A DNA stretch of 64,000 bases, from positions 2,914,001-2,978,000 of the forward strand of contig NZ_CP078145.1 of the NCBI RefSeq assembly GCF_019222765.1. The letters run 5' to 3'. This document shows positions 11,285 through 64,000 of this stretch, in pieces (positions within the stretch are counted from its first letter, which is position 1; each line of letters opens with the position of its first letter). The position numbers and the translations under genes are program-made. The notes below the pieces were generated by a model. It was given only the letters and a program-made list of their open reading frames with translations, did not search any database and had not been told where the DNA came from. Source of the stretch: Nocardia iowensis. GTDB taxonomy: Bacteria; Actinomycetota; Actinomycetes; Mycobacteriales; Mycobacteriaceae.

Positions 11285-11289
11285 GTCAT

Positions 11290-11314
11290 TCCCAACGGTG
11301 ATGCAACGTTGGGA
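11290..11314. promoter_or_regulatory. Inverted repeat in aldehyde dehydrogenase promoter
   Basis: TCCCAACG (11290-11297) and CGTTGGGA (11307-11314) are exact complements around a 9-base spacer. A TAGTGT -10-like hexamer follows at 11318-11323, so the dyad covers the expected -35 region of the aldehyde dehydrogenase gene. It is a likely operator for the GAF regulator directly upstream. Being only 6 bases after that gene's stop, it could also act as a weak terminator. Confidence 0.5.
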
Positions 11315-11364
11315 CTCTAGTGTCGGGGATCACAGGGGGACCGCCGTGAACACAAGGAGTTTCG

Positions 11365-12888
<1,524 letters not shown>

Positions 12889-12925
12889 TGCCGGGCGAAC
12901 ACGCACCGCGAGAACGGACGACACG

Positions 12926-13465
12926 GTGAGTGTCGCCCCGCCCCGCTTGGTCGCGACCGCGGAGGCGGCGGCGCTGTTGCGCCGCCTCCGCGAGGTGCAC
13001 GGTGCGCTGATGATGCACCAGTCCGGCGGCTGCTGCGACGGATCATCGCCGATGTGTTATCCCTTGGGGGAGTTCATCGTCGGTGATCGTGACATCCTGC
13101 TGGGCATCATCGATCTCCGCCTCGCGGTCGGCGAGGTGCCGAGCACCCTGCCGTCCGACGACCGTGACGCGGTACCGGTGTGGATATCCGGGACCCAGTT
13201 CCAAGCCTGGAAACACACCCAACTCGTCATCGACGTGGTGCCGGGGCGGGGCTCGGGCTTCAGTGTGGAAGCTCCGGAAGGATGGCGATTCCTCAGCAGG
13301 GCACGGGCATTCACCGCCGCGGAGAACGAAGCGCTCGAGTCGGCACCACCGGTACTCGGGACCGACTTCGCCGACGGCGCCCGTCCGCCGATCCCTGATG
13401 CCGCGCAAGTGGTGGCGCAGGCCGCGGACGCGTGCCCGGTTCCCGCGCCACCAAGCGCGGGGTGA
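12926..13465 (+). CDS. DUF779 domain protein
   Basis: 179 residues, GTG start. The core (residues about 20-120) is DUF779, recognisable by HQSGGCCDGSSPMC near residue 31 and by VWISGTQFQAWKHTQL. The Cys pair and nearby His and Asp could hold a metal or be redox active, but this is not established. DUF779 genes follow ExaC-type aldehyde dehydrogenases in many genomes, so a role in aldehyde oxidation or its protection is inferred. The Ala/Pro-rich tail after residue 150 is probably disordered. Confidence 0.88.
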   Translation: MSVAPPRLVATAEAAALLRRLREVHGALMMHQSGGCCDGSSPMCYPLGEFIVGDRDILLGIIDLRLAVGEVPSTLPSDDRDAVPVWISGTQFQAWKHTQLVIDVVPGRGSGFSVEAPEGWRFLSRARAFTAAENEALESAPPVLGTDFADGARPPIPDAAQVVAQAADACPVPAPPSAG

Positions 13466-14523: not shown

Positions 14524-15186
14524 TCAGGGCGTGAGATTTTCGAGCAGTGGCACCAGCGTCTGCCAGTTCGCCCTGGTGCCTGCCACCGCGCCTTCGACAT
14601 CGCCTGCTTCGCACAGCGCGATGATGCGCTCGTGCTGAGTCACCGAGCTACGGCCGCTCAGCGAGGAGAAGCGCAGGCGCTCCACCCGGCGCAAGACCGG
14701 GGTGAACTGTTCGAGCACGCTGCGGATGGCGTCGTTGGCGCTGGCGGTGACCGGGATGCGATGGAAGTCGTCGTCCGCGGTGATCGCGGCATCGACATCG
14801 TTGCGGCGCAAGGCATCCGCGAAACGGGAGTTGGCTTCGCGCATGGCGGCCAGTTCGTCGGCGGACAGGTTGGGCAGTGCCTCACGGACGGCGAGTTCGT
14901 GCATGGCGGTGGTGACCGACTGGGCGGCGCGGACCGCGCGCACGTTGAGTGGGCTGACGATGGTGTAGCGGCCGGGCTTCGTCTGCACCAGACCTGCCTG
15001 TTCCAGCCGCATCAGCGCCTCGCGCACCGGTGTGCGGCTGACGCCGAGCCACTTCACCAGATCGTTGTCGTTGAGACGTTCGCCGGGGGCGAGGGTGCCG
15101 TCGACGATGGCGTCCCGGATGGCGCGGTAGGCGTTTTCCCGGAGCAGGGATCTGGCGACGAGACCTTCGTGCTGCGGGACCGGCAT
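14524..15186 (-). CDS. GntR-family (FCD) regulator, probably of acdS
   Basis: 220 residues. An N-terminal GntR winged helix (ENAYRAIRDAIVDGTLAPGERLND, LGVSRTPVREALMRLEQAGLV) is followed by an all-helical FCD ligand domain with metal-binding His (DDDFHRIPV) and a late HERIIALCEAGD. It precedes acdS on the same strand and presumably senses ACC or a related acid. The ATG at 15186 lies inside a 22-base perfect palindrome (15182-15203), pointing to autoregulation. An upstream ATG at 15222 would place the palindrome inside the gene. Confidence 0.88.
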   Translation of the reverse strand: MPVPQHEGLVARSLLRENAYRAIRDAIVDGTLAPGERLNDNDLVKWLGVSRTPVREALMRLEQAGLVQTKPGRYTIVSPLNVRAVRAAQSVTTAMHELAVREALPNLSADELAAMREANSRFADALRRNDVDAAITADDDFHRIPVTASANDAIRSVLEQFTPVLRRVERLRFSSLSGRSSVTQHERIIALCEAGDVEGAVAGTRANWQTLVPLLENLTP

Positions 15187-15203
15187 GCAATATATTGCAT
15201 GCC
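15182..15203. promoter_or_regulatory. 22-base perfect palindrome over the GntR start codon
   Basis: Two 11-base arms, GGCATGCAATA and its exact complement, meet without a spacer. The core ATGCAATATATTGCAT is AT-rich against a GC-rich background and covers the start codon of the GntR gene. Such dyads are typical GntR operators. Repressor bound here would block both its own expression and acdS transcription from this promoter. Confidence 0.75.
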
Positions 15204-15406
15204 ACAGCGACGCTGTTGTCAAGGTGACCGATCAGGTTGTTGCCCAGCGGATTCCATCGAAGATCCGGTGCGCCGAGCTGCTGACGACCAGGGTCGAGGG
15301 CTCGGATCGGGGTATTGTCCGGGAACATCCCCATAGCCGCATCACCCCGGCGGGGTAGGCGAGATCCCCTCTGGAGGTGATGATCTCGTCGGTTCGGGTG
15401 CCTACC

Positions 15407-17071
15407 ATGGCGGGCGTGACTGTCGCCCGCGCTGTTCGCTGTCGCGTCCTGCTCGTTGCGGGATTGTGGACCCTGCTCGTCTCGGCCGGGATGGCACCCG
15501 CGTTCGCCGACTCCGCCGCGGCGGGTGCGGATGTTTCGGTCGCCCAGTCCCTCGGCGATCGGGAGCTCACCATCGTGCTCCGCAGGGTGACCAGCGTGCC
15601 TGGGCCGTTGCGCGTCGACGTCGTCACCCACGCTGGCACTGCCGCAGGCGATCTCACGCTCGCCGCGACGCCGACGGGAGCGCTCGGGTCCGGCTCTCGG
15701 CTACCCGCTCCCGGTGTGCCGACCGCCGAAGCCGTTGTGCGACTCGGTGGCACACCGGGGATGTATTCGGCCACCCTCGACATGGATCGGCCCGGCCCTT
15801 GGGAACTCGCGATCGGCGACGGCGTGCGCGTGGCGCGGATTCCGTTCGTCGTGCCCGAGCAGGTAACCTCGCCGCCGGAGCGGCTGGTCTACGGGGGTTT
15901 CCTGGTGGCCGGTGCGCTGCTTCCGGTTTCGGTGCTGTTGGCGATGCGGGCTCGGCGCAGCGGGTGGGCGTTGCTTCCGGCCGGTGGGATGGTGGCGGGG
16001 ATGGCCGTGTCGGTGACCGCCGCGTTGCTCTCGGCCTCGTTGCCGCTGCCGCCGCAGCCCGGCGGTCAGCTCGATCCGACGGTGGACAACGTCACCGATC
16101 CGTATTCGGTGCCGCAGCCGATGATCTCGGACTTTTCCCGTCCGCCTGTGCTGCTCACCGTCGAGGCTGGTACGGTGCCAGCCGGACGGCCGAGCGATTT
16201 CGACCTCGTGCTGATCGATGCCGCCACCGGCGCGTTGGTGGATGACCTGCTCGTGCACGACAGCGCGCTCATGCATCTGCTGGTGGTCGGCCCGTCCGGC
16301 GGACTGTCGCACCTGCACCCGATTCGGACCGGGCCCGGCCGCTACCAAGTGCATATGACAGCGCCGGAGCCCGGTCGCTATGCGCTGTCGGCCGAGTTGG
16401 CCCGGCGCGGTGGCGGCGTCCAAATGGCGCGTGCCGCAACCGGATTAACGGTCACGCCGGGCGGTGCGTCGGCCGCGCCCCAGTCGCCCAGCGCCCCATT
16501 GCATCTCGGGAGTGGGGATACGAGCGCGTCGATGGTCGTCGACGGCAACCGCATCACCGTCAGGACCACCGCCGCAGTCGCCGGAACACCCACCACCATC
16601 ACCGCCGAAGTCGGCGACACCGCCGATCTGCAACCGTGGCTCGGCATGGTCGGCCATCTGATCATGGCGGGCCCGGTGCCGGAAGCCGACACGGATATCG
16701 CCGCGGCCGTCCACAACTCGGCCATCTGGGGACACGCCCACTCCATGGGTCCGACAACCATGCAGGCCATGGGGGATATGCCGGGGATGGGCGGCGCGCA
16801 CAACATGTCGGAAATGACCGGCACCCATGACATGTCGGGGATGGATGGCGGAAAAGCCGCCGCGGGACGCGGAGTCATGCTGATGCCGCCGATCAACGGC
16901 GAGAGTCCGCCCGATGAAACGGTGGCCGCGTACGGACCCGACGTTCCGTTCACCTTCACGTTCCCCGTCGCGGGCCGGTACCGGCTCTGGATCCAGGCCG
17001 AGCGGAACTACACCGTACTCACCATTCCGGTCGTGCTCGACGTTGCGGCGGCGCAGGGGGCCCATCGATGA
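15407..17071 (+). CDS. Exported Met/His-rich membrane protein, first gene of putative metal-handling cassette
   Basis: About 554 residues. A signal peptide ends at AFA-DS. One extracellular region is followed by two membrane helices near residues 160-210, then a long extracellular part. That part has two related modules (SALMHLLVVGPSGGLSHLHP and, later, LGMVGHLIMAG), a pattern seen in secreted heavy-metal-binding domains, followed by a Met/His-rich stretch (repeated M-x-x-M, about 16740-16850) and a beta module. Methionine- and histidine-rich segments outside the membrane suggest copper binding. Its stop overlaps the next start. The start is uncertain: GTG/ATG at 15377/15380 abut a GGAGG site, while ATG 15407 gives a cleaner signal peptide. 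Confidence 0.72.
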   Translation: MAGVTVARAVRCRVLLVAGLWTLLVSAGMAPAFADSAAAGADVSVAQSLGDRELTIVLRRVTSVPGPLRVDVVTHAGTAAGDLTLAATPTGALGSGSRLPAPGVPTAEAVVRLGGTPGMYSATLDMDRPGPWELAIGDGVRVARIPFVVPEQVTSPPERLVYGGFLVAGALLPVSVLLAMRARRSGWALLPAGGMVAGMAVSVTAALLSASLPLPPQPGGQLDPTVDNVTDPYSVPQPMISDFSRPPVLLTVEAGTVPAGRPSDFDLVLIDAATGALVDDLLVHDSALMHLLVVGPSGGLSHLHPIRTGPGRYQVHMTAPEPGRYALSAELARRGGGVQMARAATGLTVTPGGASAAPQSPSAPLHLGSGDTSASMVVDGNRITVRTTAAVAGTPTTITAEVGDTADLQPWLGMVGHLIMAGPVPEADTDIAAAVHNSAIWGHAHSMGPTTMQAMGDMPGMGGAHNMSEMTGTHDMSGMDGGKAAAGRGVMLMPPINGESPPDETVAAYGPDVPFTFTFPVAGRYRLWIQAERNYTVLTIPVVLDVAAAQGAHR

Positions 17072-17490
17072 CCGCCACCGGTCGGCGTCCGCTGCGCGTT
17101 CTCGCCATCGCAGGCGCCGTGCTCGTGCTCGTCGCCATCGGGTGGCTGGTCTGGCCGCGCTCACCCGCGCCCGTCGTACTGAATGCCGGTACGCCGCAAC
17201 ACCTCGTCACCGTCACCATCGACAGCCTTCGCATCGGCGACACTGCTGTCGATGTCACCGTCACCGACCGCGCCGGTACCCCGATCGACCATGCGGCAGT
17301 ACAGGTTCAGGCGATCCAACCGCTGATGGGCCACGCCGGGCCGCCGGTTCCCGCGAGCTCCGCCGGGTCCGGTCGCTTCCGTGCCGCGGCGGTATCGCTG
17401 ATGATGACCGGACCATGGGAGCTGCGACTGTCGATCGACGCACACCACGGCGTGGACCAACTCACGCTGCCGCTGTGGGTCGGCGGCTGA
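17068..17490 (+). CDS. YtkA/FixH-like membrane-anchored protein
   Basis: 140 residues. One N-terminal membrane anchor (VLAIAGAVLVLVAIGWLVW) is followed by an extracellular Ig-like beta domain reading VTVTIDSLRIGDTAVDVTVTDRAGTPID and GRFRAAAVSLMMTGPWELRLSID, the pattern of YtkA/FixH-like domains that occur with copper and cytochrome-oxidase assembly proteins. Methionine and histidine near the C-terminus (LMGHAG, SLMMTG, DAHHGVD) could be ligands. It overlaps the upstream gene by 4 bases and lies 66 bases before the polytopic protein. Confidence 0.68.
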   Translation: MTATGRRPLRVLAIAGAVLVLVAIGWLVWPRSPAPVVLNAGTPQHLVTVTIDSLRIGDTAVDVTVTDRAGTPIDHAAVQVQAIQPLMGHAGPPVPASSAGSGRFRAAAVSLMMTGPWELRLSIDAHHGVDQLTLPLWVGG

Positions 17491-17556
17491 GACCGGCCGA
17501 CAACCACACGCCACAGAACGAACCGCAGGAGCACGACACAGGAGGGACCGCTCGCC

Positions 17557-18705
17557 ATGAATATTTCAGCACCGTCCGACGCGACCGCAGACAGTGGCGG
17601 ACCGAAGAACGTCGAAGGCACATCCGACGACAGCACAGCGGCCCGCATCGGCGCATGGGGCGTGCTACTCGGCACCGCGGTCACGCTGGTCGGGCTCAGC
17701 TGGGATATCCAGTGGCACAACGACGTCGGCCCCGACACCTTCTTCACCCTGCCGCACCTGTTCCTGTATTCCGGTAGCGCCATATCGGGTTTCGCCAGCC
17801 TGGCCATGGTGCTCATCACCACCGCCGCGCAACGCGCGGGACGGCCGGTGCCCCGGATGGGCGGCACACCCATTCGCGTGTTCGGCAGTAACCTCACCGC
17901 ACCGCTCGGCTACATGGTCGCCGGGGCGGGGGCCGCTTTGTTCCTGCTGTACGGCCTGCTGGATATGCAGTGGCATTCGATCTACGGCTTCGACGCGGTG
18001 CTGAACACCCCGTCGCACGTGGCACTGTTCCTCTCGATCACGCTCACCATGATCGGCAGCATCATGGTCTTCGCCGCCCACCGCGACCATCGCTGGGGCC
18101 AGTTCGGCATCGTCCTGGCAATCCCGATCCTGATCACCTTCGCCCCGATCCTCGCCGAGGCGTTGAACAACCTGGAACCGCCCGTCGATCCGACCGTCCT
18201 CGGCATCGTGCTGTTCGGGCCGATGCTGCTCGTCCTCGGCGCGGCGGTGCTGGCCCGCCCGGGTGCCGCCATCGCCATCGCGGTCGCTCTCGGCGGCATG
18301 CAGGCGATCCTGTGGTGGTTCTCGCCGTGGGCCGCGGAAGCCTATGCCTCGGCGATCGGGCTGCCGCTGCGGGACGGTCTCGGGTCGCGGCCACCTTCGC
18401 TGCCCGCCCTCATGCCGATGTTCCTGATCGTCGCCGCCGTCGCCGTCGAGGGTCTGTTCTGGTTGGCCCGCACGCGCGGCTACGACGCGAACAAGATCGT
18501 GCTGGTAGCGGGTCTGGTGACCGGTGTCGTGGTCGGCCTGACCTTCCCGCTGCAACTGCACCTCACCCACGCCATGTCGAGCCTCGAGGTCAACGACGTC
18601 GTCACCGCCACCCTCGTCGGGATTCCGCTGGGTCTGCTCGCCGGGTTCCTCGGCGGCCGATTCACTCGCATGCTGCCGGTGCCCGCTAGGGAGGCCGTCC
18701 GATGA
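17557..18705 (+). CDS. Polytopic membrane protein with internally repeated QWH...H segments
   Basis: 382 residues, about nine to ten hydrophobic helices, cytoplasmic N-terminal tail of about 30 residues. Two segments match each other: SWDIQWHNDVGPDTFFTLPH near residue 50 and LLDMQWHSIYGFDAVLNTPSH near residue 135. Each has a conserved QWH and a second His some 14 residues later, placing paired histidines at the membrane surface as expected for heme or copper ligands. No family name can be given with confidence; a distant resemblance to CopD/CtaG-type proteins is possible. GGAGG precedes the start. Confidence 0.7.
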   Translation: MNISAPSDATADSGGPKNVEGTSDDSTAARIGAWGVLLGTAVTLVGLSWDIQWHNDVGPDTFFTLPHLFLYSGSAISGFASLAMVLITTAAQRAGRPVPRMGGTPIRVFGSNLTAPLGYMVAGAGAALFLLYGLLDMQWHSIYGFDAVLNTPSHVALFLSITLTMIGSIMVFAAHRDHRWGQFGIVLAIPILITFAPILAEALNNLEPPVDPTVLGIVLFGPMLLVLGAAVLARPGAAIAIAVALGGMQAILWWFSPWAAEAYASAIGLPLRDGLGSRPPSLPALMPMFLIVAAVAVEGLFWLARTRGYDANKIVLVAGLVTGVVVGLTFPLQLHLTHAMSSLEVNDVVTATLVGIPLGLLAGFLGGRFTRMLPVPAREAVR

Positions 18706-54392: not shown

Positions 54393-55490
54393 TCAGCGCA
54401 GGAACCAACCGGTGCCGCCGATCGGCACCTCGTTCTCGATGCGGGGCAGGTGCTGGTCGAAGAAGAGTTTGGCGGTCAGTTCGGCCCGGCTGCGGACTTC
54501 GAGTTTGCCGAAGACCCGCTTGATGTGGTCGTCGACGGTGTAGGCGGAAACCGTTAGCAGCCGGGCTATCTCGGTGCGGGCGAAGCCTCTGGCGATTAGC
54601 CCGACGACGTCGCGTTCCCTGCTGGTGAGGCGGTAGGTGTCGGCGATGAGGGCGGCGATTTCGACCGGACGGGCGGCTTCGATGATGATCGACACCTGGT
54701 CGTCGGCACCGGCGAGCTGTTCGGCGTGCAGGGTGAGCCAGCGGCCGGTGCGGGAACGGATCCGAGTGCGGGCGGGGCCTGGACGTGACCACGCCTGGTG
54801 GGCCAGCGTCAGTACGCAGAAGGGCAGTTCGCGGTGCGGGTCGATACCGTCATCGACCTGGGTGAGCCACCGCGCGGCGGCCGAGGACATGGTGGTCGGG
54901 TGCAGGTCGCGGTCCAGCAGAACCAGGCCGGGTCCGGCGGCGGTGTCGTCGGCGGTGATCTCGGTGAGGACCATCTCCCTGCGGATCGCGGTTGCCACCG
55001 AAATGGTGGCATCGCCGATCAGTTGGGCGTCGGCGTCGGCGAAATCCGGCGCGTCCGCGCCGCGAAACAGCACCAACGCACCCCACACACTGGCATTGTC
55101 ACCGAACAGCACGCGCATCTCCCGCGTCATGCCCGCGGGCACCAGGATCTCCCGATAATGCCTGCTGCGCTCCGGCTGTCCGCCGGTGGCCGCGGTCAAG
55201 GTCATCGCTCGCCGACAGCTGCGGGCCATGGTGGACAGCGCGAGGGCGTCCTGCCCACCTGCCTCGATCTCGAGCATCGGATTCATGTACTCGAGCGGCA
55301 AACCCTCGCGATGCCAACCGCCGGTCGGCAGGACCGAACCCGGATCGACGGTCAGTGCGCACCAGGCGTCGAAGGGCACGGCCTCGCGCAAGCTCGCGCA
55401 GACAGCGCGTTCGAGTTCGACGGCACCGGAGACGGTGCGACAGGCACGCTCGACGCCCGCAGTCACCTGGTCCAGCGTTTTGGCCCGCAT
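54393..55490 (-). CDS. LuxR-type regulator with GAF-like sensor
   Basis: 365 residues. A GAF/PAS-like region spans about 15-280 (VPFDAWCALTVDPGSVLPTG, VWGALVLFRGADAPDFADADAQLI, a second LLDRDLHPTTMSSAAARWL), and the C-terminal LuxR helix-turn-helix is YRLTSRERDVVGLIARGFARTEIARLLTVSAYTVDDHIKRVFGKLEVRSRAEL. No ATPase domain and no receiver. Ligand unknown. ATG at 55490 chosen; the longer frame has no site. Confidence 0.87.
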   Translation of the reverse strand: MRAKTLDQVTAGVERACRTVSGAVELERAVCASLREAVPFDAWCALTVDPGSVLPTGGWHREGLPLEYMNPMLEIEAGGQDALALSTMARSCRRAMTLTAATGGQPERSRHYREILVPAGMTREMRVLFGDNASVWGALVLFRGADAPDFADADAQLIGDATISVATAIRREMVLTEITADDTAAGPGLVLLDRDLHPTTMSSAAARWLTQVDDGIDPHRELPFCVLTLAHQAWSRPGPARTRIRSRTGRWLTLHAEQLAGADDQVSIIIEAARPVEIAALIADTYRLTSRERDVVGLIARGFARTEIARLLTVSAYTVDDHIKRVFGKLEVRSRAELTAKLFFDQHLPRIENEVPIGGTGWFLR

Positions 55491-55813
55491 GCAACCAAGT
55501 ATCGTCCGCGGCGGCGTCGTCGGCGGCCGATTCGGCTGGCTGGCCAACATTGCTGGGGCACAACGTTATCGGGCTCGCATGACGTGGCAAGCATTGCGGC
55601 CCTGGCACATTGGTGCGGCCCGCCCGATCATCGCTTGATCGAGGGGTCCGAGGGTCGCCCGGCGGCTCGGCGTCGGGCCGTGGAGTGTCGGTTAGCTCAC
55701 ATACGGCGGTATTCGATAGGGATTCCGGCCGATCCGTGACATGGTTGTCCAGTGAGATCAGGCTTATCGAAGTGATTTGCTTGGCTCATCTACAGAAAAG
55801 ATGAAGTAAAAAC
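55491..55813. other. Divergent spacer before cold-shock gene
   Basis: 323 bases. No gene supported. The right part is AT-richer and should contain the cold-shock promoter and its untranslated leader; the left part should hold the LuxR promoter. Confidence 0.4.
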
Positions 55814-56017
55814 ATGGCTCAAGGCAGTGTGAAGTGGTTCAACAGCGAAAAGGGCTTCGGCTTTATCGCACAAGACGGTGGCGGCGCTGACGTGTTCGTT
55901 CATTACTCCGCCGTGTCCGGCTCGGGATTCAAGTCCCTTGAAGAAGGACAGCGTGTGGAGTTCGAGGTCGGCCAAGGACAGAAGGGCCCGCAGGCCCAGG
56001 ACGTCCGCGCCATCTGA
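55814..56017 (+). CDS. Cold-shock protein (CspA family)
   Basis: 67 residues, single OB-fold nucleic-acid chaperone. RNP1 KGFGFI and RNP2 VFVHYSAV are intact, and the start [21 protein letters not shown] is typical of actinobacterial CspA. It binds single-stranded RNA/DNA and eases translation at low temperature. Followed by a textbook intrinsic terminator. Confidence 0.95.
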
Positions 56018-56035
56018 TCGACGCAGCTTGGTAAG

Positions 56036-56066
56036 GCCCCGCACCCTCTGGGTGCGGGGCTTTTGC
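56036..56066 (+). terminator. Intrinsic terminator of cold-shock gene
   Basis: GCCCCGCACCC, loop TCT, GGGTGCGGGGC, then TTTTGCGTTTTT: 11 pairs plus T-tract, 18 bases after the stop. The only classical T-tailed terminator seen in the window. Confidence 0.92.
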
Positions 56067-56177
56067 GTTTTTCTGGTAGTCGTACCGATTTGCGTCCGCG
56101 CCCAGCAGTGCGCCGGTATCGTCCGTCACCTGAGGCAATGCCTCTGCGGAACTACTGTCACTGCCGAGGAGGTCGCG

Positions 56178-56378
56178 ATGCGGCGACACATCTCACTTCG
56201 CCCGCTATGGCGCCACCTGCTGCGTGGCCTGATCCTGTGCGGTGCGTGTGCGGGCGGGTCGGCCAGCTCCTACTTCGAGTGGTCTCGGGCCAATCCCGCC
56301 AAACCTGCTGATCCGCCGGAGGAGTGCTGGGACTGGTCTGTGCCACACCAGTGGTACGACATGGCGCACCGCCGCTGA
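56178..56378 (+). CDS. Small membrane-associated protein, unknown
   Basis: 66 residues. Basic N-terminus with Arg/His repeats (MRRHISLRPLWRHLLRGL), one short hydrophobic segment (LILCGACAGGSASSY) and an acidic, Trp/Pro-rich C-terminus (PEECWDWSVPHQWYDMAHRR). GAGGAGGT lies 5 bases before ATG, the best argument for a real gene. The two Cys in the hydrophobic segment and one in the tail are notable. No family recognised. Its stop lies 28 bases from the convergent phospholipase stop. Confidence 0.55.
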   Translation: MRRHISLRPLWRHLLRGLILCGACAGGSASSYFEWSRANPAKPADPPEECWDWSVPHQWYDMAHRR

Positions 56379-56406
56379 GTTACGCCGTCGATGGGCGCGT
56401 GGCTCA

Positions 56407-58461
56407 TCAGCCGGTGACGCTCGGGTGGCCGTTCTCGATGTGCCCCCGGAAGTGCCGCTGATAGCTCGGGTCGACGTCCACGGTCAGTGAGAGGTCATAC
56501 CAGCCTCTGCCGTAGCGGAGCGCGTTCCAGGTATCGGTAGTGGTCTGCCCGGGCGCGATCGTGAAGGTCCACGGACCGTCGGTGCGGTAGCTGTTGGCCC
56601 GCACGGTGACGGTGGCCTGCGCCTTGCCCTTGTTCGTCATCGACAGGTGCAGTTTGAGGTCGGGGGTGTAGGAGGCGGTCACCTCCAGTGGCGACGTCGA
56701 GGTTCCGGCGAGCCGCCACAGGAACCGGTTGGGTCCGTGTACCGCGATGCCGTACTTCTTGTCGGCGTAGTTCTGGACGCTCCAGGTATCGGTGACGGTG
56801 GCTCCCGACTGCACGTCGTAGCGCCACGGCCCGTCGGTGCGCCCATCGGCCCGATACGCCGCCAACTGCACATCGGCTGCGCCGGTGTTGCGGAACGTCG
56901 TGGTCAGTGCGCCATCCGGGCCGAGGATTCCGTTCACCACCGGGGCGTAGGGCAGCGGCCGGGCCGGCCTGGTCCCTGATTCCTGCTCCGGCGGCCGCTG
57001 GCTGCCCGCAGCGGGAGGGGCGGGTTTGGGCAGCGAACTCTGCGTCGCATCAGCTTGTGCCCGAAGGGCATTGGCATCGGGCAGCAGCGGGATGGTGGTG
57101 TCGGCGGCGCTGAAATCGAAACACCCGGTGAGGTCGCCGCAGATGGAGCGGCGCCAGGCGGAAATGTTGGGTTCGTCAACTCCGGTCCACTTCTCCAGGA
57201 AACGGATCACCGAGGTGTGATCGTGCACTTGCGAATTCACCCAGCCGCCGCGACTCCACGGTGAGATCACCAGCATGGGCACCCGGGGTCCGAGACCGAT
57301 GGGCTGGCCGTTGACGTATTCGCCCGGGGTACCCGGCGGTGCCATCGGCGGCGGCACATGATCGAAGAACCCGTCGTTCTCGTCGAAGTTGATCAGCAGG
57401 GCGGTCGAGTTCCAGAGATTCTGATTCCCCCACAACGCTTTCAGCACGGCGTGGGTGTAGGCGGCACCATCGGCGGGGCGGGCGGCGGGATGTTCGGAGT
57501 ACCCATAAGGAGCGACCACCCAGGAGACCTGGGGAAGTCGCCCGGCGGAGCAGTCGGCGATGAAATCCGACAGCACGTGCGCGACATTTTTGCCCTGGCC
57601 GGAATCGGGCTTCCAGTTCTGTGCACCGAATACCTTTGCCCGCGAGGCGAGTTCGGTGTTCTTCGGGTCGTGGTATGCATCGAACAGCCACAGCGGGTTG
57701 TCGCCGTAGTCGCCGACGAAGGGGTGGCGACCGGAGTCGTCGCCTACCTCGTCGTTGGCGTAGACCTTCCAGGTGATCCCCTTGTCCTGCAAACGTTCCG
57801 GATAGGTGGTCCAGCGATAGACAGGGTTGTAGTTGGCCGGATTGCTGGTCGCGGGGCCGCCGTATTGTCCTGCGGCATCTATGGTTCCGGTCCACTGATA
57901 GAGCCGGTTGGGTGTGGTGGGTCCGAGGACCGAGCAGAAGTAGTGGTCGCAGACGGTGAACGTGTCGGCCAGTGCGCGGTGAAAGGGTATGTCGGCGGCG
58001 GTGAAGTAGCTCATTGTCATCTCGCCTTTGGCCGCGGTCCAGTCGTCGTTCCAGCCGCCGCGCACCGCTCGATGCTGATCGCCCCAGCCGTGCGGCAGGT
58101 CTCCGATGTCCTGGCCGTCGACGACGGCGGTATCGAGATGAAAGGGCAGCAGGTAGCCGCCGTCGGACCGACCCGAATCCGGTTGAAAGTAGACATTGCG
58201 GCCGTCCGGCTTGACGACGGCGGTCGCGTCGCCGAACCCGCGCACCCCGCGCATCGTGCCGAAATAGTGGTCGAACGAACGGTTCTCCTGCATCAGGATC
58301 ACCACATGCTCGACGTCACTCAAGGTCCCCTTCCGGCTCGGCGCCGCGAGCGCCTCGGCCATACCCGACGGCAGCACCTGCATCCCGCCGGTCAACGCGG
58401 CCGCGCCGAGCGCGCTCCCGATGAATCGCCTTCTGGGGAAACCCGAACCTACCTGGGGCAC
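56407..58461 (-). CDS. Phosphocholine-specific phospholipase C, Tat-exported
   Basis: 684 residues. Twin-arginine signal (PRRRFIGSALGAAALTGG) for folded export. The catalytic alkaline-phosphatase-like domain starts VEHVVILMQENRSFDHYFGTM, with further metal-site segments NFDENDGFFDHVPPP and VHDHTSVIRFLE. Two C-terminal DUF756-type beta repeats (about 515-600 and 605-680) carry the paired RTDGPWRYDV / RTDGPWTFTI motif. It hydrolyses phosphatidylcholine/sphingomyelin outside the cell, and homologues are virulence factors in mycobacteria and Pseudomonas. GTG start. Confidence 0.93.
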   Translation of the reverse strand: MPQVGSGFPRRRFIGSALGAAALTGGMQVLPSGMAEALAAPSRKGTLSDVEHVVILMQENRSFDHYFGTMRGVRGFGDATAVVKPDGRNVYFQPDSGRSDGGYLLPFHLDTAVVDGQDIGDLPHGWGDQHRAVRGGWNDDWTAAKGEMTMSYFTAADIPFHRALADTFTVCDHYFCSVLGPTTPNRLYQWTGTIDAAGQYGGPATSNPANYNPVYRWTTYPERLQDKGITWKVYANDEVGDDSGRHPFVGDYGDNPLWLFDAYHDPKNTELASRAKVFGAQNWKPDSGQGKNVAHVLSDFIADCSAGRLPQVSWVVAPYGYSEHPAARPADGAAYTHAVLKALWGNQNLWNSTALLINFDENDGFFDHVPPPMAPPGTPGEYVNGQPIGLGPRVPMLVISPWSRGGWVNSQVHDHTSVIRFLEKWTGVDEPNISAWRRSICGDLTGCFDFSAADTTIPLLPDANALRAQADATQSSLPKPAPPAAGSQRPPEQESGTRPARPLPYAPVVNGILGPDGALTTTFRNTGAADVQLAAYRADGRTDGPWRYDVQSGATVTDTWSVQNYADKKYGIAVHGPNRFLWRLAGTSTSPLEVTASYTPDLKLHLSMTNKGKAQATVTVRANSYRTDGPWTFTIAPGQTTTDTWNALRYGRGWYDLSLTVDVDPSYQRHFRGHIENGHPSVTG

Positions 58462-58660
58462 AGCATTCCTCTCGATCCGACATGGGATTGGCGTGCAGAG
58501 CAGAGAATGTGCGAGAACTCTTCCGCGATGGTCTCGGTTGAAAATAGATTCGCGGTGAACGCCCTGTGGCGCGAAACGGAACGAGCGGGGGATAAGCCAG
58601 TTAGGGCAAAGTCCTGGTTAATTGTCGACGGATAGAGATGGAACTCTTCTGCCGATTCTG

Positions 58661-58679
58661 CCGTACCCGTGAGGTACGG
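58661..58679. terminator. Hairpin downstream of the RiPP-type operon
   Basis: CCGTACC-CGTGA-GGTACGG, seven exact pairs, 42 bases past the stop of the glycosyltransferase (minus strand). Probably the operon terminator; no T-run. Confidence 0.5.
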
Positions 58680-58721
58680 GTGGCGTTCTTTGGGGAAGCC
58701 GCCCGCGCGAGTGCCCTGCGG

Positions 58722-60575
58722 CTACCGCAGCTGCACGACCTGATCGAGGGCGAAGCGCCGGAGCAGTTCCGGTACGGCGGTCGGCGGCGCATCGTGCGCA
58801 CGCGCGGCGATATCGGTGATTTCCTCGACGGTTCGTGTCCCGTCGCACAGCTGCAGCAGCTCACGGGTCGCCGGTGTCAGCCGGAATACGCGTCCCCGCA
58901 GGCTTGGGCGCTTGTGGAACGCGCACACCGATGGCTCGCTGTCGACGATCTCGCCGCGAGCCGTCAACGCATCCACGTCGAGAGCGAACTCGGCTATCCG
59001 GAGCAGCGCGCTGCAAACCGGCCGCAACTGGCCGAAGTCTGGTTGTCGCCGAGCAACCGCCGAGCGGGGAAAGGCAGGATCGACCGCATCATGGTCCGCG
59101 TCGACCGCGAGCCAGAGGCGATGCTGCTCGAAGCGGACAACTTCGCGAATGGTGTCGGGGGGATATTCCAGCTCGACGTCGTCATCGATCGATTCGGCCA
59201 GCATTGTCGCGAAATCCTGCACCCCGACGGGAGCGACCCGGCTCAGTAGCCGCTCGGCTCGTCCGTTCAGTAGGGCCATCGTCATCGGCATGTGCCGACG
59301 CAGCAATGGCAGCACCGCGTCGTCCGCGGACTGGGCCGGACCACCGTGCACGACGGCGTCGAACATCGCCGCATACGCGGCACCCAGTTCGTCATCGTCC
59401 GCCACCGGAAGCTGTTTGCTACTCTGCCGCCCGAATTCGACAGCAGCCGCCGGATCCGCGATCACCTCGGCGAGCACCTTCGCCAATCCGTCGATATCGC
59501 GGGGATCTTCGACTACCCGCGCACTGGACCGCAACTCCGGCCAATGAGGTTGGGTACGAACCACTTCCGCGGACAGCACCGCGCAGGTGCCGCAGCTGAG
59601 CAGTTCCATCGGAAGCCCCGGCCGGTGCACTTCTACCGGAAAATTCCGCTCCAAACCGCACACCGCTGTGCACGCCCGCAACACCTCGGGCACTCGCCAA
59701 GGTGGCAGGAATGGAAGTGTCCACGTCACCTCGGTGAGCCCGAGTTCGTCTACCGCCGTGAGGAACTTCTCGCGCTCGGTACCGCCCGCCATGACGAGGA
59801 AGTTGAACCGCAGCCCGCGTCCGCGCAGTCGCGCAAGCGCTTCGATCAGGTCGTACGATCCTTTGACGACGCCGAGTTTGCCGTAGACACCGATGGTGGC
59901 GACGGCCGGGTCGAGCGGGGAAGTGTTGCGCACCCAGGCCGATTCACGCAACCGCGCGACGAGGGCGGTCAGGTCGGCCGCCGGACCATCCGGCGTGAAC
60001 TCCGGCGGCAGCGAAGCCTTCGGCATGGGTGCGATCCGGTGCGGCGGAATGCCGAGGCCGGTCAGATTTCGGTCGCCGACGACAAGATCCGCGCGCCGCA
60101 ACACTTCCCGGTAGGCCTGACCCAGCTCCGGGTGATCGAGTAATCGGGTCCGGTCGCTGCCCGCGTGTTGGACGACGTGTGGAACACCGGTCCACGACGC
60201 GGCCAGATGCGCGCTCAGCCCATAGGGTTCCAGATAGGCGGAGAACACCAGATCCGCGCCGTGCAGCCGAATTTCCTCGGTGGCCAGTGCGGCGAGCTTG
60301 GTGGCGAACGGATTCGCCGCGGGAATGTACGCGCGGGCGCGCTCCCACTGTCCGGACGCGATCACCCGCACCGCACCGCCATTGGGAAAGGTCGCTGCCA
60401 AACGCTGAAAGTCGCTGTCGTCGAACCAGATCCGATAGTCGTCCTCGACCTCGTCGGCATTGGTCACGACATCCACCTGATGGCCGCGTTCGGCGAGCGC
60501 CCGAGCCATTCGGTAGCAGTGCGCGCTCACCCCACCCTGGATCGGCGGATACTTCATCACCGCGCAGATTCGCAT
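58722..60575 (-). CDS. GT4-type glycosyltransferase with C-terminal partner/RRE-like domain, RiPP operon
   Basis: 617 residues. Residues 1-about 390 form a GT-B glycosyltransferase: MRICAVMKYPPIQGGVSAHCYRMARALAERGH at the start, GVYGKLGVVKGSYDLIEALARL in the middle and a donor-site region FPVEVHRPGLPMELLSCG with the two Glu of the E-x7-E type pattern. The last about 190 residues are extra and end in a PqqD-like module (RVFRLTPATRELLQLCDGTRTVEEI). Segments there echo the partner protein next door (VRFEQHRLWLAVDAD, LRIAEFALDV), suggesting that both bind the same peptide. Start overlaps the partner stop by 1 base. Probably glycosylates the modified peptide or an intermediate (inference). Confidence 0.82.
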   Translation of the reverse strand: MRICAVMKYPPIQGGVSAHCYRMARALAERGHQVDVVTNADEVEDDYRIWFDDSDFQRLAATFPNGGAVRVIASGQWERARAYIPAANPFATKLAALATEEIRLHGADLVFSAYLEPYGLSAHLAASWTGVPHVVQHAGSDRTRLLDHPELGQAYREVLRRADLVVGDRNLTGLGIPPHRIAPMPKASLPPEFTPDGPAADLTALVARLRESAWVRNTSPLDPAVATIGVYGKLGVVKGSYDLIEALARLRGRGLRFNFLVMAGGTEREKFLTAVDELGLTEVTWTLPFLPPWRVPEVLRACTAVCGLERNFPVEVHRPGLPMELLSCGTCAVLSAEVVRTQPHWPELRSSARVVEDPRDIDGLAKVLAEVIADPAAAVEFGRQSSKQLPVADDDELGAAYAAMFDAVVHGGPAQSADDAVLPLLRRHMPMTMALLNGRAERLLSRVAPVGVQDFATMLAESIDDDVELEYPPDTIREVVRFEQHRLWLAVDADHDAVDPAFPRSAVARRQPDFGQLRPVCSALLRIAEFALDVDALTARGEIVDSEPSVCAFHKRPSLRGRVFRLTPATRELLQLCDGTRTVEEITDIAARAHDAPPTAVPELLRRFALDQVVQLR

Positions 60576-61321
60576 CAGCCCGTCCCCTCGAACAGCCGTT
60601 CCTGCCGGGCGAACCGCACCACCGCCTCGGCCTCGGGCGGAAACGGCGCGCCCGACCGCAGTACGCGAAAGGCCGTGTCGCCCAGGCGATAGCACGCCAG
60701 TGCCGACCGCCCGGCGATCTTCACCAAGGCGATTCGAATCGGATCCCCCAGTATGCCGTCGGGCATGACGCCACTGCGCAGCCACTCGTTGTGCTGGGTC
60801 ACCACGTCACTGTCGAACTCGGCGAGCCGCACATGCGCGCCCAGCACCGATCCGCCCAGCGTGACGTCCGCCTGTTCGGCCGCGACGGTGGCCGCCGGGT
60901 CGAACAACAACTCCAGGCGCAGCACCTCGTATCTCGCGAGGTCGGCCATATCGTCTCGGCCACTGGTCACGAGATAGTCGAGAAACCTCGTCCCCTCGGC
61001 CAGCACTCGCTTGTGGTTCTGCTGTCCATCGACATGGGTCGGCGGGTATCGACGGATGAACTCGTCGAGGAAGTCGTGCTCGTGCGCCGCCGCCGACAGG
61101 GTCGCGGGCAGACACCGCGCCAGCATGTCCAGCCGCTTGTTGGTCACCGAGCGGACGTTGACGTCCAGCTGAGTCCGGTCGGCCGCGGCGAGCAGGTCCA
61201 GCTCGGCCCTGGAGAGCGCGAACCGGGCGGCGAGCTCAGCGGGCCGCTCAGCCAACATGGTCCGCGCGTTTCCGGCGGTGAGCAGCTCGGCCAACGCTCG
61301 CTGGAAACCGCTGCCGCTCAC
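60575..61321 (-). CDS. Partner protein of the MNIO enzyme
   Basis: 248 residues, soluble. The N-terminal half is helical (FQRALAELLTAGNARTMLAERPAELAARFALSRAELDLLAAADR), the middle carries HDFLDEFIRRYPPTH, and the C-terminus (ACYRLGDTAFRVLRSGAPFP) looks like a PqqD/RRE-type winged helix. In described MNIO pathways a helper protein follows the DUF692 enzyme and delivers the precursor; this gene occupies that position, overlapping the enzyme stop by 4 bases. I do not recognise a Pfam name with certainty (DUF2063-like at most). Confidence 0.72.
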   Translation of the reverse strand: MSGSGFQRALAELLTAGNARTMLAERPAELAARFALSRAELDLLAAADRTQLDVNVRSVTNKRLDMLARCLPATLSAAAHEHDFLDEFIRRYPPTHVDGQQNHKRVLAEGTRFLDYLVTSGRDDMADLARYEVLRLELLFDPAATVAAEQADVTLGGSVLGAHVRLAEFDSDVVTQHNEWLRSGVMPDGILGDPIRIALVKIAGRSALACYRLGDTAFRVLRSGAPFPPEAEAVVRFARQERLFEGTG

Positions 61322-62160
61322 CCGCCCATCACCACCGAACCGATCGCCGCCCTGGCCCGGCGCAGGTCGGCGGTGAGTTCATCGAAGTCGTCCGGAAACT
61401 CCTGGTCGCGTTCGAGAATGACGCAGCGTACCGCGGGCGCGCGCCCGGCCAGGTAATCCAGCAGCTCCCACACCTCGCCGGGTACGGGCGCGGAATGCGA
61501 GTCGAGCAGCGTGCCGTCCGACCAGTACCCGCCCGCGAGGTGCAGCTGCACTACCCGTTCCAGCGGAATGGAATTCAGGAACTCGATCGGGTCGTACCGG
61601 TGATTGACCGAGTTGATGAAGACGTTCGTGAGATCGAGAAGCAGTCCGCAGCCCGCCTTTTCGACCACATGCGTGATGAACTCGGCCTCGGACAACTCGG
61701 CCGGGAAGTCCAGGTGATAGGTGATGTTTTCCAGCAGGAACGGCGTGCCGACGCGCTCCTGCACCTGTCGGGCTTTGCCCGCGATCTCGTCGGCCATTCC
61801 CCGCGTGCGCAGCAGCGGTGTCAGCTGTCCGATCGAGACGCCACCGGCCCGCGTGAACGACAGATGGTCGCTGCACCACGGTGCGTCGACCCGGGCCACC
61901 AGGTCCGCGAGATCGTCCAGATAGCCGGTGTCGAGCGGCCCTTCGGTGCCGATCGACATCTCGACCCCGTGCGGTGTCAACGGGAACCGGTCCCGCAGTA
62001 GGTCCAGTGGACCGCCTACCGGCGTCTCGAGGAAGTTCTCGGTGATGATCTCGAGGCAGTCGATCGACTCCTGGTTCGCCATGATCGCGGCGTCCAGTTC
62101 CCTGCGATATCCGAGACCGACTCCGAGCGCCGGCAGGCTGCCGAGGTCGAACTCACGCAT
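61318..62160 (-). CDS. DUF692/MNIO multinuclear iron-dependent oxidative enzyme
   Basis: 280 residues, TIM-barrel of the DUF692 family (MbnB, TglH, BufB). Hallmarks are GLGYRRELDAAIMANQESIDCLEIITENFLETP, VEMSIGTEGPLD, APWCSDHLSFTRAGG, PFLLENITYHLDFP, GCGLLLDLTNVFINSVNH, VVQLHLAGGYW and CVILERDQEFPDDF, which carry the His/Glu/Asp iron ligands. Members oxidise cysteine or aspartate residues of ribosomal peptides with O2. The gene overlaps the cysteine-rich precursor by 8 bases. ATG at 62160; a longer frame runs through the precursor and is rejected. Confidence 0.93.
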   Translation of the reverse strand: MREFDLGSLPALGVGLGYRRELDAAIMANQESIDCLEIITENFLETPVGGPLDLLRDRFPLTPHGVEMSIGTEGPLDTGYLDDLADLVARVDAPWCSDHLSFTRAGGVSIGQLTPLLRTRGMADEIAGKARQVQERVGTPFLLENITYHLDFPAELSEAEFITHVVEKAGCGLLLDLTNVFINSVNHRYDPIEFLNSIPLERVVQLHLAGGYWSDGTLLDSHSAPVPGEVWELLDYLAGRAPAVRCVILERDQEFPDDFDELTADLRRARAAIGSVVMGG

Positions 62161-62293
62161 AGCAGCGGCAGCAGGCGCCGCAACTGCAGCACGGCAGTAC
62201 GCCCATGACACGGTCCGCGGTTGCGCCCTCGTCCTCCACCAGCGCGACCCGCTCGAAGAGATATGGATCCTTGATTTCCATTGTGACCGACAC
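62153..62293 (-). CDS. Cysteine-rich RiPP precursor peptide
   Basis: 46 residues, GTG start with GAAAGG 8 bases upstream (ATG four codons later possible). The leader MEIKDPYLFERVALVEDEG has the amphipathic, acidic character expected of a recognition sequence. A GV-L-P stretch precedes the tail CCSCGACCRCYA: six cysteines in ten residues (Cys35, 36, 38, 41, 42, 44). It is immediately followed, with 8-base overlap, by the MNIO gene. Composition and position make it the substrate of that enzyme. The mature product and any cleavage site are unknown. Confidence 0.88.
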   Translation of the reverse strand: MSVTMEIKDPYLFERVALVEDEGATADRVMGVLPCCSCGACCRCYA

Positions 62294-62598
62294 TGTTCTC
62301 ACCTTTCGTCAGGTTTCCAGTAGTCAGCATGTGCCGGTCACCGATGGTCGACCAGGGAGTACGGCCCCTGGTGACCCGGGAATTCTTCCCGACCCGTCGG
62401 GAAGAGCATGGTGCGACCTATTTGTACCGAATGGTCGGTCGAGAGCCGCAGGGGGCCAGTCGATTTCGGGTTCGGTCAGCGGTCCGAAAACTTCCCCTTC
62501 GGGCCCTGCCCAGGGCATTCTCAGGCAGCTGAGAGATCCGCTCATTCGGTGCACGGAACCGGGATCCAGCAGAGGCCTGTGCCAGGGGGTGATGAACT
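62294..62598. promoter_or_regulatory. Divergent control region of the RiPP operon with two long dyads
   Basis: 305 bases between the precursor gene and the NarL-type regulator. TCTTCCCGAC-CC-GTCGGGAAGA (62384-62405) is a perfect ten-base inverted repeat. ACCAGGG (62351-62357) and CCCTGGT (62366-62372) form a second. They lie 58-112 bases upstream of the precursor start, suitable for an operator pair or a leader hairpin. No other gene supported here. Confidence 0.6.
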
Positions 62599-63324
62599 GT
62601 GCTGTCCAAGTCCGCTTGTCAGCAGCGAACCTTGGGGTCCGATATTTCGGTACTCGACGATATCGGCTCGCCACTGTCCGAAATATGCCGGCTGACCGTG
62701 GTGCTCGCCGATGACCACGCGGTCGTCCGGGCGGGGTTGCGGTCGCTGCTCAGTTCCGTCGACTGGATCTCCGTCGTCGCCGAGACCAGCACCGACGGTG
62801 CGGTGCGTGAGGCGGTGCTGCACCGGCCGGACGTGCTGATCCTCGGTCAGTGGCGGCAACCCGAAAGTGGTTCCGTCATCGGCGAACTGGTGCGGTCCGC
62901 GCCGGGCGTCGCGATACTCGTGTTCAGCATGGCCGAGGACGACGAGTCGGTATTCGCCGCTATCCGTGCTGGAGCGGGCGGCTACCTCCGCAACGCCGCG
63001 GAGCGCGACGACATCCTGCGCGCGATCTGTGCGGTGTCGGCCGGGTGGGTGATTTTCAGTCCGCAGATCGGCAGCAGACTCGCCACCATGCTGTCCGGCT
63101 CCACCGTCCAGGCTCGCCCTTTCCCGGACTTGACCGCCCGGGAATTCGACGTGCTGACCCTGGTCGCCGCGGGACTGCCGAACGCCTCGATCGCCGCCGA
63201 ACTGAACCTGGCGCCGAAAACGATCAGCAACTACCTCTCCCGCATCTTCGCGAAGCTCGGCGTGGCGGACCGGGCGAACGCGATCGTCCGGGCGAGAGAC
63301 GCGGGCCTCGGCAGCTCGCCATGA
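62599..63324 (+). CDS. NarL/LuxR-type regulator with degenerate receiver
   Basis: 241 residues. The receiver domain starts near residue 32 (LTVVLADDHAVVRAGLRSLL) and keeps the acidic pair, but the phospho-acceptor position is Gly83 (DVLILGQWRQPES, normally L-L-D or M-D), and the conserved Lys is replaced (GGYLRNAAERDD). The C-terminal LuxR helix-turn-helix is complete (LTAREFDVLTLVAAGLPNASIAAELNLAPKTISNYLSRIFAKLGVADRANAIV). It is divergent from the RiPP operon and is its likely regulator, working without phosphorylation. GTG start with AGGGGGT 8 bases upstream. Confidence 0.87.
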   Translation: MLSKSACQQRTLGSDISVLDDIGSPLSEICRLTVVLADDHAVVRAGLRSLLSSVDWISVVAETSTDGAVREAVLHRPDVLILGQWRQPESGSVIGELVRSAPGVAILVFSMAEDDESVFAAIRAGAGGYLRNAAERDDILRAICAVSAGWVIFSPQIGSRLATMLSGSTVQARPFPDLTAREFDVLTLVAAGLPNASIAAELNLAPKTISNYLSRIFAKLGVADRANAIVRARDAGLGSSP

Positions 63325-63653
63325 ACAATCCGGCACGTGCCGAATCCGGCTGCCGCATATTCAGTATCTTCGTCGACTTACCGAGTGCCGACGATGATCA
63401 TGATCTAGATATAGGGCAATCGTCCAGTTCGAGCGATCAGAAAATAGCAGCGCAGCGGTCTACGCTAGCTATGACCTGTGGGAACGGGCAATTGTGACTA
63501 CCGTGCTGCGATACCGGTTGCCATACATGAGATTCCATCAGCAAATGCGGAAATCGATCTTTGCTCGTCCCATTGACGGGGTAGAGTCCAACTACTTTCC
63601 TCGGGTCCCGAAGCGCGGCTCGCTCCGTACGGATGTTGACTCTGGAGGAATAC
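63325..63653. other. Spacer upstream of small helical protein
   Basis: 329 bases, AT-richer in the middle (63390-63440). No supported gene; reading frames on both strands here lack ribosome sites and codon bias. It should contain the promoter of the gene at 63654. Confidence 0.4.
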
Positions 63654-63935
63654 ATGCCTCTTCCCGACCGTCGTGCAGCGATCCGTCTCTTGGCGCCGCC
63701 GGCGAGCAGGCCAGATAAAAGCGCACCGGATCTGGTGTGGCAGTGGGCGAAAACGATGACCGCCGGTCGGATGACCGCGCAGCGGCTCAGCGCGGAATTC
63801 CCGACGGTGCCGCAGGCGGTGATCCACGCCGCCGTCGCGCAGGCGCACGCCGAACTGCACCCGCTGTTGGCCGACTCGCTGACCGAAATGACCGAATTGC
63901 TTGCGCGCGAACGAATCCGGCGGATCGTGGGCTGA
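63654..63935 (+). CDS. Small helical protein, unknown
   Basis: 93 residues from ATG 63654, with GGAGG 6 bases upstream. Ala/Leu-rich helices: RRAAIRLLAPPASRPDKS, then LVWQWAKTMTAGRMTAQRLSAEFPTVPQAVIHAAVAQAHAELHPLLADSLTEMTELLARERIRRIVG. The middle (TAQRLSAEFPTVPQAVIHAAV) resembles a helix-turn-helix or UBA-like small domain, but no family is assigned. Convergent with the Lsr2-like gene at the window edge. Confidence 0.62.
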   Translation: MPLPDRRAAIRLLAPPASRPDKSAPDLVWQWAKTMTAGRMTAQRLSAEFPTVPQAVIHAAVAQAHAELHPLLADSLTEMTELLARERIRRIVG

Positions 63936-63948
63936 GACTTGCCGGGAC

Positions 63949-64000
63949 TTACCGGCTTGCCTTCTGGTACGCCTCGACGACCTCGGCCGAAATCCGTCCC
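63949..64000 (-). CDS. lsr2: C-terminus of Lsr2-family nucleoid protein, partial
   Basis: Only the last 16 codons are inside the window: GRISAEVVEAYQKASR then TAA. The R-G-R-I-x-A-x-V-x-x-A-Y pattern is the AT-hook-like end of Lsr2, the xenogeneic silencer of actinobacteria. The remainder lies beyond the right edge. Confidence 0.75.
   Translation of the reverse strand, partial: GRISAEVVEAYQKASR

Follow-up and report, generated by a model that had tools for sequence, protein, structure and literature searches.

A candidate RiPP operon of Nocardia iowensis that joins an MNIO enzyme to a glycosyltransferase with a partner-like C-terminal domain

Nocardia is a soil bacterium, and the genome of Nocardia iowensis (8.95 Mb, one contig) holds a single gene for a multinuclear non-heme iron-dependent oxidative enzyme (MNIO). 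We analysed the 64,000-nucleotide stretch of this genome in which that gene lies (contig NZ_CP078145.1, positions 2,914,001 to 2,978,000; hereafter the window, from whose first letter coordinates are counted). Four minus-strand genes spanning 62293-58722 each overlap the next: those of a small cysteine-rich peptide, the MNIO, an MNIO partner protein and a glycosyltransferase of the GT4 type, which together form a candidate operon for a ribosomally synthesized and post-translationally modified peptide (RiPP). An earlier, sequence-only reading of this DNA had described an operon of this composition, and all four genes were found at the positions that it gave. The overlaps amount to 8 nt between the precursor and MNIO genes, 4 nt between the MNIO and partner genes and 1 nt between the partner and glycosyltransferase genes, which suggests that the translation of the four genes is coupled.

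62153..62293, minus strand: precursor peptide gene, 46 residues, GTG start; leader with DPYLFERV, core GVLPCCSCGACCRCYA
61318..62160, minus strand: MNIO (PF05114), 280 residues; among curated models BufB and HvfB fit best, each far under its cut-off
60575..61321, minus strand: MNIO partner protein, 248 residues; resembles PME-type 2 from its position and weak HvfC profile matches
58722..60575, minus strand: glycosyltransferase, 617 residues, ATG at 60575; GT4-type domains (about 1-400), then a partner-like/PqqD-like C-terminal domain (about 410-617)

The precursor peptide and its enzymes

The precursor gene (62293-62153) encodes, from its GTG codon, the 46-residue peptide VSVTMEIKDPYLFERVALVEDEGATADRVMGVLPCCSCGACCRCYA, which ends in PCCSCGACCRCYA and carries six cysteines within its last 12 residues. 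No family in Pfam or NCBIfam matches it, and no signal peptide-like N-terminus was seen by eye in the 46 residues. The sequence GAAAGG lies directly upstream of the start in all four aligned Nocardia loci, the other three of which start with ATG at the same position; the start is supported because this ribosome-binding site is kept. Three other Nocardia genomes of the sample (G077, G121 and G094) have the peptide next to the MNIO, and it also appears in one additional protein-database cluster, P0006. All five Nocardia precursors end in GVLPCC-x-CG-[A/G]-CC-x-CYA. The ratio of nonsynonymous to synonymous substitution rates (dN/dS) ranges from about 0.05 to 0.43 in the six pairs of four Nocardia precursors, and the peptide is under purifying selection.

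Outside Nocardia, the open reading frame (ORF) that precedes the MNIO in Actinosynnema sp. ALI-1.44 (G906) ends in DDPYLFERVEFVTEEEPAPASLVYPMPCGGCG, its true start being uncertain. When the 2145 ORFs of 13 loci were searched with a profile of the Nocardia precursors, this ORF obtained an expectation value (E) of 1.6e-6, and the other matches below E 0.2 were two Nocardia copies only. The leader sequence DPYLFERV is kept in Actinosynnema and the core differs (PMPCGGCG), as expected for a RiPP precursor. The sequence-only reading had staked its proposal on conservation of the peptide beside the MNIO (DUF692) gene, and such conservation was found in three other Nocardia genomes and, with a changed core, in Actinosynnema.

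The MNIO matches PF05114 with 256.6 bits against a cut-off of 25 (E 3.1e-76), over profile positions 1-261 of 263. In enzymes of this family, iron is bound by conserved His, Asp, Glu and Asn residues; the window's MNIO contains PHGV, SDHL, LLEN, LLDLTN, QLHLAG, DSH and ERD, aligned with solved relatives, and the same patterns did not find the motifs in every relative. Among the NCBIfam models, BufB (218.4 bits, cut-off 310) and HvfB (202.8, cut-off 360) score above ApyH (110.4, cut-off 400), ChrH (51, below its cut-off) and MbnB (44.3, cut-off 325).

The partner protein matches no Pfam family at E 1, lacks the DUF2063 signature and gives a weak match to the NCBIfam HvfC model (E 0.054). Its closest species-named database relative comes from N. 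brasiliensis (90% identity). In PMC12452194, PME-type 2 partners are those encoded after the MNIO and without a DUF2063 signature. The window's partner fits both features. For the NGO1945/TglI-related fold that also marks this type, the partner gave weak HvfC matches and profile searches of the PDB listed no such relative.

Three Pfam models exceed their cut-offs on the glycosyltransferase, namely Glyco_trans_4_4 (47.5 against 29.7 bits), Glyco_transf_4 (46.6 against 28.5) and Glycos_transf_1 (35.3 against 26.4), and the GT2 domain PF00535 has no match at E 1. Four signature stretches are kept in all 14 homologs read. The sequence-only reading had called a glycosyltransferase unusual in such an operon; it proved to be unusual in a further respect, since its tail (from about residue 410) aligned with the MNIO partner family with an hhalign score of 69.6 and a probability of 96.4% over 155 columns. 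The control scores were 14.8 for the reversed profile, 15.0 for the enzyme's own N-terminal part, 12.6 for the reversed partner and 19.1 for the best of 100 column shuffles. A second comparison gave a probability of 96.6% and E 6.2e-10 (as a single comparison), and restriction of the glycosyltransferase side to database sequences gave 54.3 (93.6%). Additionally, the NCBIfam model of ApyI, a MNIO partner that bears a RiPP recognition element (RRE; PMC10635010), matched the tail in all ten glycosyltransferases scanned, with E from 1.3e-8 to 0.039 and all far under the 200-bit cut-off; the best match was that of P0025 (residues 438-627 on model positions 83-258 of 260, E 1.3e-8). PF05402 (PqqD) matched eight of nine further glycosyltransferases, all below the cut-off, and is precomputed on P0017 and P0024. 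The best matches of the tail in the PDB were designed helical proteins (E 6e-4), which offer no useful link.

By these profile comparisons, the MNIO partner and the C-terminal third of the glycosyltransferase are homologs. Because of this homology and the resemblance to ApyI, the tail probably captures the same precursor as the partner does. A glycosyltransferase fused to an apparent second copy of a MNIO partner was not found described in the literature covered. A separate database protein, P0019 (398 residues), has about 39 MNIO residues at its start and continues as glycosyltransferase from about position 258; the cause is either a deletion that arose in nature or a faulty assembly.

Related loci and the common core motif

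Searches for the glycosyltransferase used cut-offs of 1e-40 to 1e-60, and three to eight candidates per genome were scored; since the genome samples overlap and so few candidates were scored, absences are not proof. Homologs were found in nine other genomes. With the window's genome included, the counts were 5 of 148 genomes for the genus, 2 of 348 for the order, 2 of 394 for the class and 2 of 326 for the phylum; the family of G263, a sample without the window's genome, gave 2 of 249. Each of the five Nocardia genomes has a MNIO of the type described here, not of the type associated with TIGR04222 proteins.

The glycosyltransferase gene adjoins the MNIO gene in six of the nine other genomes (G077, G121, G116, G702, G904 and G906), and in G094 the contigs break within the partner gene, which is consistent with the same gene order. 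This adjacency occurs in five separate lineages, the window's included. The locus of Actinosynnema sp. ALI-1.44 (L075) has the window's gene order, with identities of 68% for the MNIO, 42% for the partner and 54% for the glycosyltransferase, the last being identical to database protein P0027. In two lineages beyond Nocardia and Actinosynnema, different small cysteine peptides accompany the same three enzymes.

The first of these is L076 (G904, Pseudonocardiaceae-type), with a peptide ending in ITRFCSGCR, MNIO 52%, partner 30% and glycosyltransferase 40%. Here an ABC transporter gene overlaps the 3' end of the glycosyltransferase gene, so export is plausible at this locus. The sequence-only reading had noted no obvious protease or exporter; this stands for the window's operon and does not extend to L076. 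Past the ABC transporter genes of L076, 4 kb downstream of the MNIO and glycosyltransferase genes, positions 14689-17622 encode a lantibiotic dehydratase (Lant_dehydr_N, E 1e-126).

The second is L041 (G702, of a different family in the same class), which comprises peptides with ASCNGCNTCS and SSCGGCNGCMGCSM, an asparagine-synthase-like enzyme, the partner, the MNIO (46%), the glycosyltransferase (38%) and another asparagine-synthase-like enzyme that also has a methyltransferase domain. Only two signals identify its partner, a profile score of 18.5 bits, which is weak, and a match to ApyI at E 8e-4. A NodU-type carbamoyltransferase is also near the MNIO, partner, glycosyltransferase and cysteine peptides of this locus (693-2408 and 4115-13337).

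At L067 (G116), a MNIO with a 300-residue C-terminal extension (7114-8862) precedes the glycosyltransferase. This extension may be a fused partner; its match to the partner profile is very weak (9.3 bits). Two small ORFs upstream of this MNIO (6513-6623 and 6853-7002) were rejected as precursors, neither having the core motif. In G1295 (83% complete), a glycosyltransferase homolog lies on a 3.9-kb contig and no MNIO was found. The homolog of G419 (L036, 1-17001) stands amid genes that by eye are lysine-2,3-aminomutase-like, ATP-grasp-like and sulfotransferase-like; a small protein of the DE[A/L]WH type occurs in L036 and beside the glycosyltransferase homolog in L077.

The MNIO tree comprised 35 rows (one gene entered twice), was rooted at the midpoint and has several long branches. 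A branch with 100/100 support separates the nine glycosyltransferase-associated rows, together with L061, L062 and L056, from 23 rows that include seven other Nocardia MNIOs. No such glycosyltransferase occurs within the 19 kb read at L061 and L062; at L056 (G432), 1.5 kb to each side was read. L061 (G391, Micromonospora-like, 5063-10673) has a MNIO at 52% with a partner and, upstream, a gene that appears methyltransferase-like by eye; its neighbours we take from their sequence to be a copper P-type ATPase and a chaperone. L062 (G334, 3163-11234) belongs to a cluster that looks YcaO/SagB-like by eye; it has a partner, a MNIO that shares 50% identity with the window's, and a small peptide ending in VPMCGVTQSSNVQCNYPMCA.

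The motif C-x-[G/A]-C is present in all eight cores scanned and, by reading, in P0006, and thus in all nine assigned precursors. In shuffled cores it arose with frequencies of 0.05 for Actinosynnema, 0.015 for G904 and 0.07 and 0.18 for the two G702 peptides. The cores end variously in CYA, CGGCG, CSGCR and GCSM; their common feature is a cysteine with an adjacent small residue, and, judged by the composition of the last 16 residues, cysteine is the sole possible side-chain acceptor common to all of them. The captophorin enzyme FonBC prefers a small residue after the cysteine and is blocked by a charged one (PMC12668002). By analogy, the Cys-Gly, Cys-Ser and Cys-Asn steps of the present cores would fit this preference and the Cys-Arg step would not.

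C-x-[G/A]-C also occurs in tails of proteins encoded next to other Nocardia MNIOs, CSGCGGCGGCGG being an example. Of 25 such loci, ten gave an ORF that came through a strict filter with the motif as a requirement and 15 gave no such ORF; one of the ten, the L019 ORF, was tested and is a TIGR04222 protein (E 2e-21).

Proposed pathway and its alternatives

The sequence shows the gene order, the conservation, the purifying selection on the peptide and the fact that the glycosyltransferase tail is a homolog of MNIO partners; the identity of the substrate, the order of the steps and both reactions of the following pathway are inferred. The partner protein would bind the 46-residue peptide via its leader, in the DPYLFERV region. 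One or more cysteines in the C-x-[G/A]-C core would then be oxidised by the MNIO, and the probable result is a heterocycle that bears a thiol, of either the 5-thiooxazole or the oxazolone/thioamide kind. The glycosyltransferase would re-capture the same precursor by its built-in partner-like domain and add a sugar, and leader removal and export would fall to genes elsewhere. Peptides with 5-thiooxazoles carry free mercaptans (PMC12668002). The sugar would most likely sit on sulfur, either of a cysteine thiol or of a thiol made by the MNIO, because cysteine is the only shared acceptor and thiooxazole products expose a mercaptan.

On balance we favour the interpretation of the operon as a RiPP pathway in which leader-guided cysteine oxidation is followed by leader-guided glycosylation. 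Its parts carry different weight: the peptide is very likely the substrate of the MNIO, it is likely also that of the glycosyltransferase, and we have comparable confidence that the residue modified by the MNIO is cysteine. The placement of the sugar on sulfur is close to an even call and is proposed tentatively. A more far-reaching proposal, on the doubtful side, is a distinct RiPP class of Actinomycetota with S-glycosylated MNIO products, in which the MNIO would make a mercapto-heterocycle from a core cysteine and a GT4 enzyme with a captured partner domain would re-bind the leader and cap the thiol with a sugar, yielding a protected, perhaps releasable, metal-binding thiol. In that case the partner fold would serve generally for precursor docking and move between unrelated enzymes.

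Several observations weigh against this pathway. The complete single-contig genome G419 has the glycosyltransferase (38%) and no MNIO anywhere, so this type of protein can serve something else, and for G116 no precursor was assigned with confidence. The glycosyltransferase-associated MNIOs do not form one clade within their side of the tree, which implies at least two changes. The usual GT4 motif is E-x7-E; the 14 homologs all have LER-x-F-x4-H-x-P-x4-E (that is, E-x14-E and H-x6-E), in which the first Glu of E-x7-E is not kept. When only database (closest) sequences were used on both sides, the comparison of tail and partner fell to a score of 30.3 (21%, E 0.001), and their link thus rests partly on divergent members. 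PF05402 at the extreme end of the window's glycosyltransferase reached 23.1 bits against a cut-off of 23.4, and profile searches of the PDB with the whole glycosyltransferase, with its tail and with two versions of the partner profile returned no MNIO partner or RRE. The core motif was picked after the sequences had been viewed, and shuffling produced it in about 0.40 of cases for each Nocardia core.

Among the alternatives, the strongest, though unlikely, is that the MNIO and its partner modify the peptide and the glycosyltransferase places its sugar on a core Tyr, Arg or Ser, or on the leader, to give an O- or N-glycosylated product. All five Nocardia cores keep a Tyr, the Actinosynnema core has one directly before it, and different acceptors could be used at different loci. 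However, the last 16 residues contain no Tyr in the G904 core or in either G702 core, and none of Ser, Thr, Asn and Arg recurs in every core.

Slightly less probable is a MNIO that acts on a residue other than cysteine, as ApyH, BipE and StdE do, with the cysteines serving as metal ligands or recognition elements. ApyHI modifies Asp and requires an unmodified Cys (PMC10635010), and the glycosyltransferase tail resembles ApyI; the cores, however, share cysteine with a neighbouring small residue, and those of Nocardia, Actinosynnema and G904 have no Asp in their last 12 residues.

We regard as improbable a MNIO-made thiol peptide of the bufferin kind, acting against copper or oxidative stress, next to which the glycosyltransferase would be a passenger with another substrate. 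This explanation would account for BufB and HvfB being the closest curated MNIO models, for the presumed copper P-type ATPase and chaperone genes at L061, where the glycosyltransferase is absent, and for the glycosyltransferase of G419, which has no MNIO. It is harder to reconcile with the missed BufB and HvfB cut-offs, the lack of a DUF2063 match and of a signal peptide-like N-terminus by eye, the adjacency of glycosyltransferase and MNIO in five lineages and the partner-like domain that the glycosyltransferase bears. Finally, the view of the small ORF as a chance or regulatory ORF rather than a RiPP precursor, to which its shortness and its lack of a family-model match could point, is scarcely credible given dN/dS below 0.5 in 6/6 pairs, the conserved ribosome-binding site and the leader conserved in Actinosynnema.

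Surroundings of the operon and comparison with known systems

Two features lie upstream of the operon:

62599..63324, plus strand: response regulator with a LuxR-type helix-turn-helix (Response_reg, GerE), divergent; adjoins the operon also in N. colli and N. altamirensis
62384..62405, no strand: 10-nt inverted repeat without mismatch, located between the operon and the regulator; relatives keep only part of it; may be an operator

The response regulator is 79% identical in N. colli and 70% in N. altamirensis, beside the operon in both, and was not found in the Actinosynnema locus. It probably controls the expression of the operon. As its operator, the inverted repeat was set aside: with up to two mismatches the pattern occurs seven times in the window against 4.5 expected, and it is exact at 62386-62403 only. 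Scans for promoters (0 found, 0.6 expected) and terminators (1 found, 2.2 expected) did not exceed shuffled sequences, Rfam gave no structured-RNA match in 55000-64000, and PADLOC gave no defence-system match for the three operon enzymes. The Actinosynnema glycosyltransferase had no match at 1e-40 in the plasmid collection. A phospholipase C-type phosphoesterase gene (PF04185, PF05506; 56407-58461, minus strand) lies 260 nt downstream of the operon; it is 87% identical in N. colli and was not found on the 12.6-kb N. altamirensis contig.

The sequence-only reading had held the core to be unlike known ones, and it matches none of the MNIO product families tested. Captophorins and bufferins (BufB, HvfB and FonB with DUF2063 partners; PMC12668002, PMC12452194) are alike in having a cysteine precursor and a MNIO followed by a partner, and they supply the best-scoring models. 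However, the window's precursor has 46 residues without an EGKCG repeat or a DUF2282 match, and the glycosyltransferase is extra; with the BufB and HvfB cut-offs missed and no DUF2063 signature in the partner, this assignment was rejected. Methanobactin (MbnB, 44.3 against 325 bits) and chryseobasin (ChrH, 51 bits, below its cut-off) were likewise discarded. The aminopyruvatide system (ApyH, ApyI; PMC10635010) shares a MNIO with an RRE-bearing partner, and among NCBIfam models the window's glycosyltransferase tail is closest to ApyI. It differs in that the four-gene operon lacks a P450, a radical S-adenosylmethionine enzyme and a methyltransferase; we rejected it on the ApyH score (110.4 against 400 bits) and on the precursor, which ends in CYA and has no C-terminal Asp.

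The TIGR04222 proteins next to MNIOs in Actinomycetota (PMC12452194) occur in the same genus, and their tails share C-x-G-C. Unlike the window's peptide, they are large membrane proteins, and their MNIOs form a separate group on the tree, beside which no partner-like glycosyltransferase was found. This system was rejected as the window's precursor has no NCBIfam match, L019 serving as the positive control. RREs fused to GT2-type (PF00535) glycosyltransferases in RiPP clusters have been foreseen (PMC12710340). The window's enzyme, in contrast, is of the GT4 type, and its added domain matches an MNIO partner across both the helical part and the RRE-like end. If the sugar were on cysteine, the closest product type would be the glycocins, whose enzymes are GT2-type and among which sublancin is an S-glycosylated peptide; glycocin clusters are not known to contain a MNIO.

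Precursors, partners and the TIGR04222 group of MNIOs are covered by PMC12452194, whose main text contains neither 'glycosyl' nor 'Nocardia'; the Pfam names of MNIO-cluster genes in its Fig. 5b may include a glycosyltransferase. In searches of the text of the open-licence PMC literature, neither a MNIO cluster with a glycosyltransferase nor this operon was found. The reported MNIO products within that literature are oxidised, rearranged, cross-linked or methylated, and none carries a sugar.

The five divergent precursor groups (the window's clade, Actinosynnema, G904 and two of G702) share one core motif and make a rule for the modified residue directly testable. If the proposed pathway is true, a GT4 domain with a partner-like tail would be a search handle for more small-peptide clusters in Actinomycetota, the MNIO partner would look like a transferable module for precursor docking, open to fusion with other enzymes, and glycosylation would be added to the chemistry of MNIOs.

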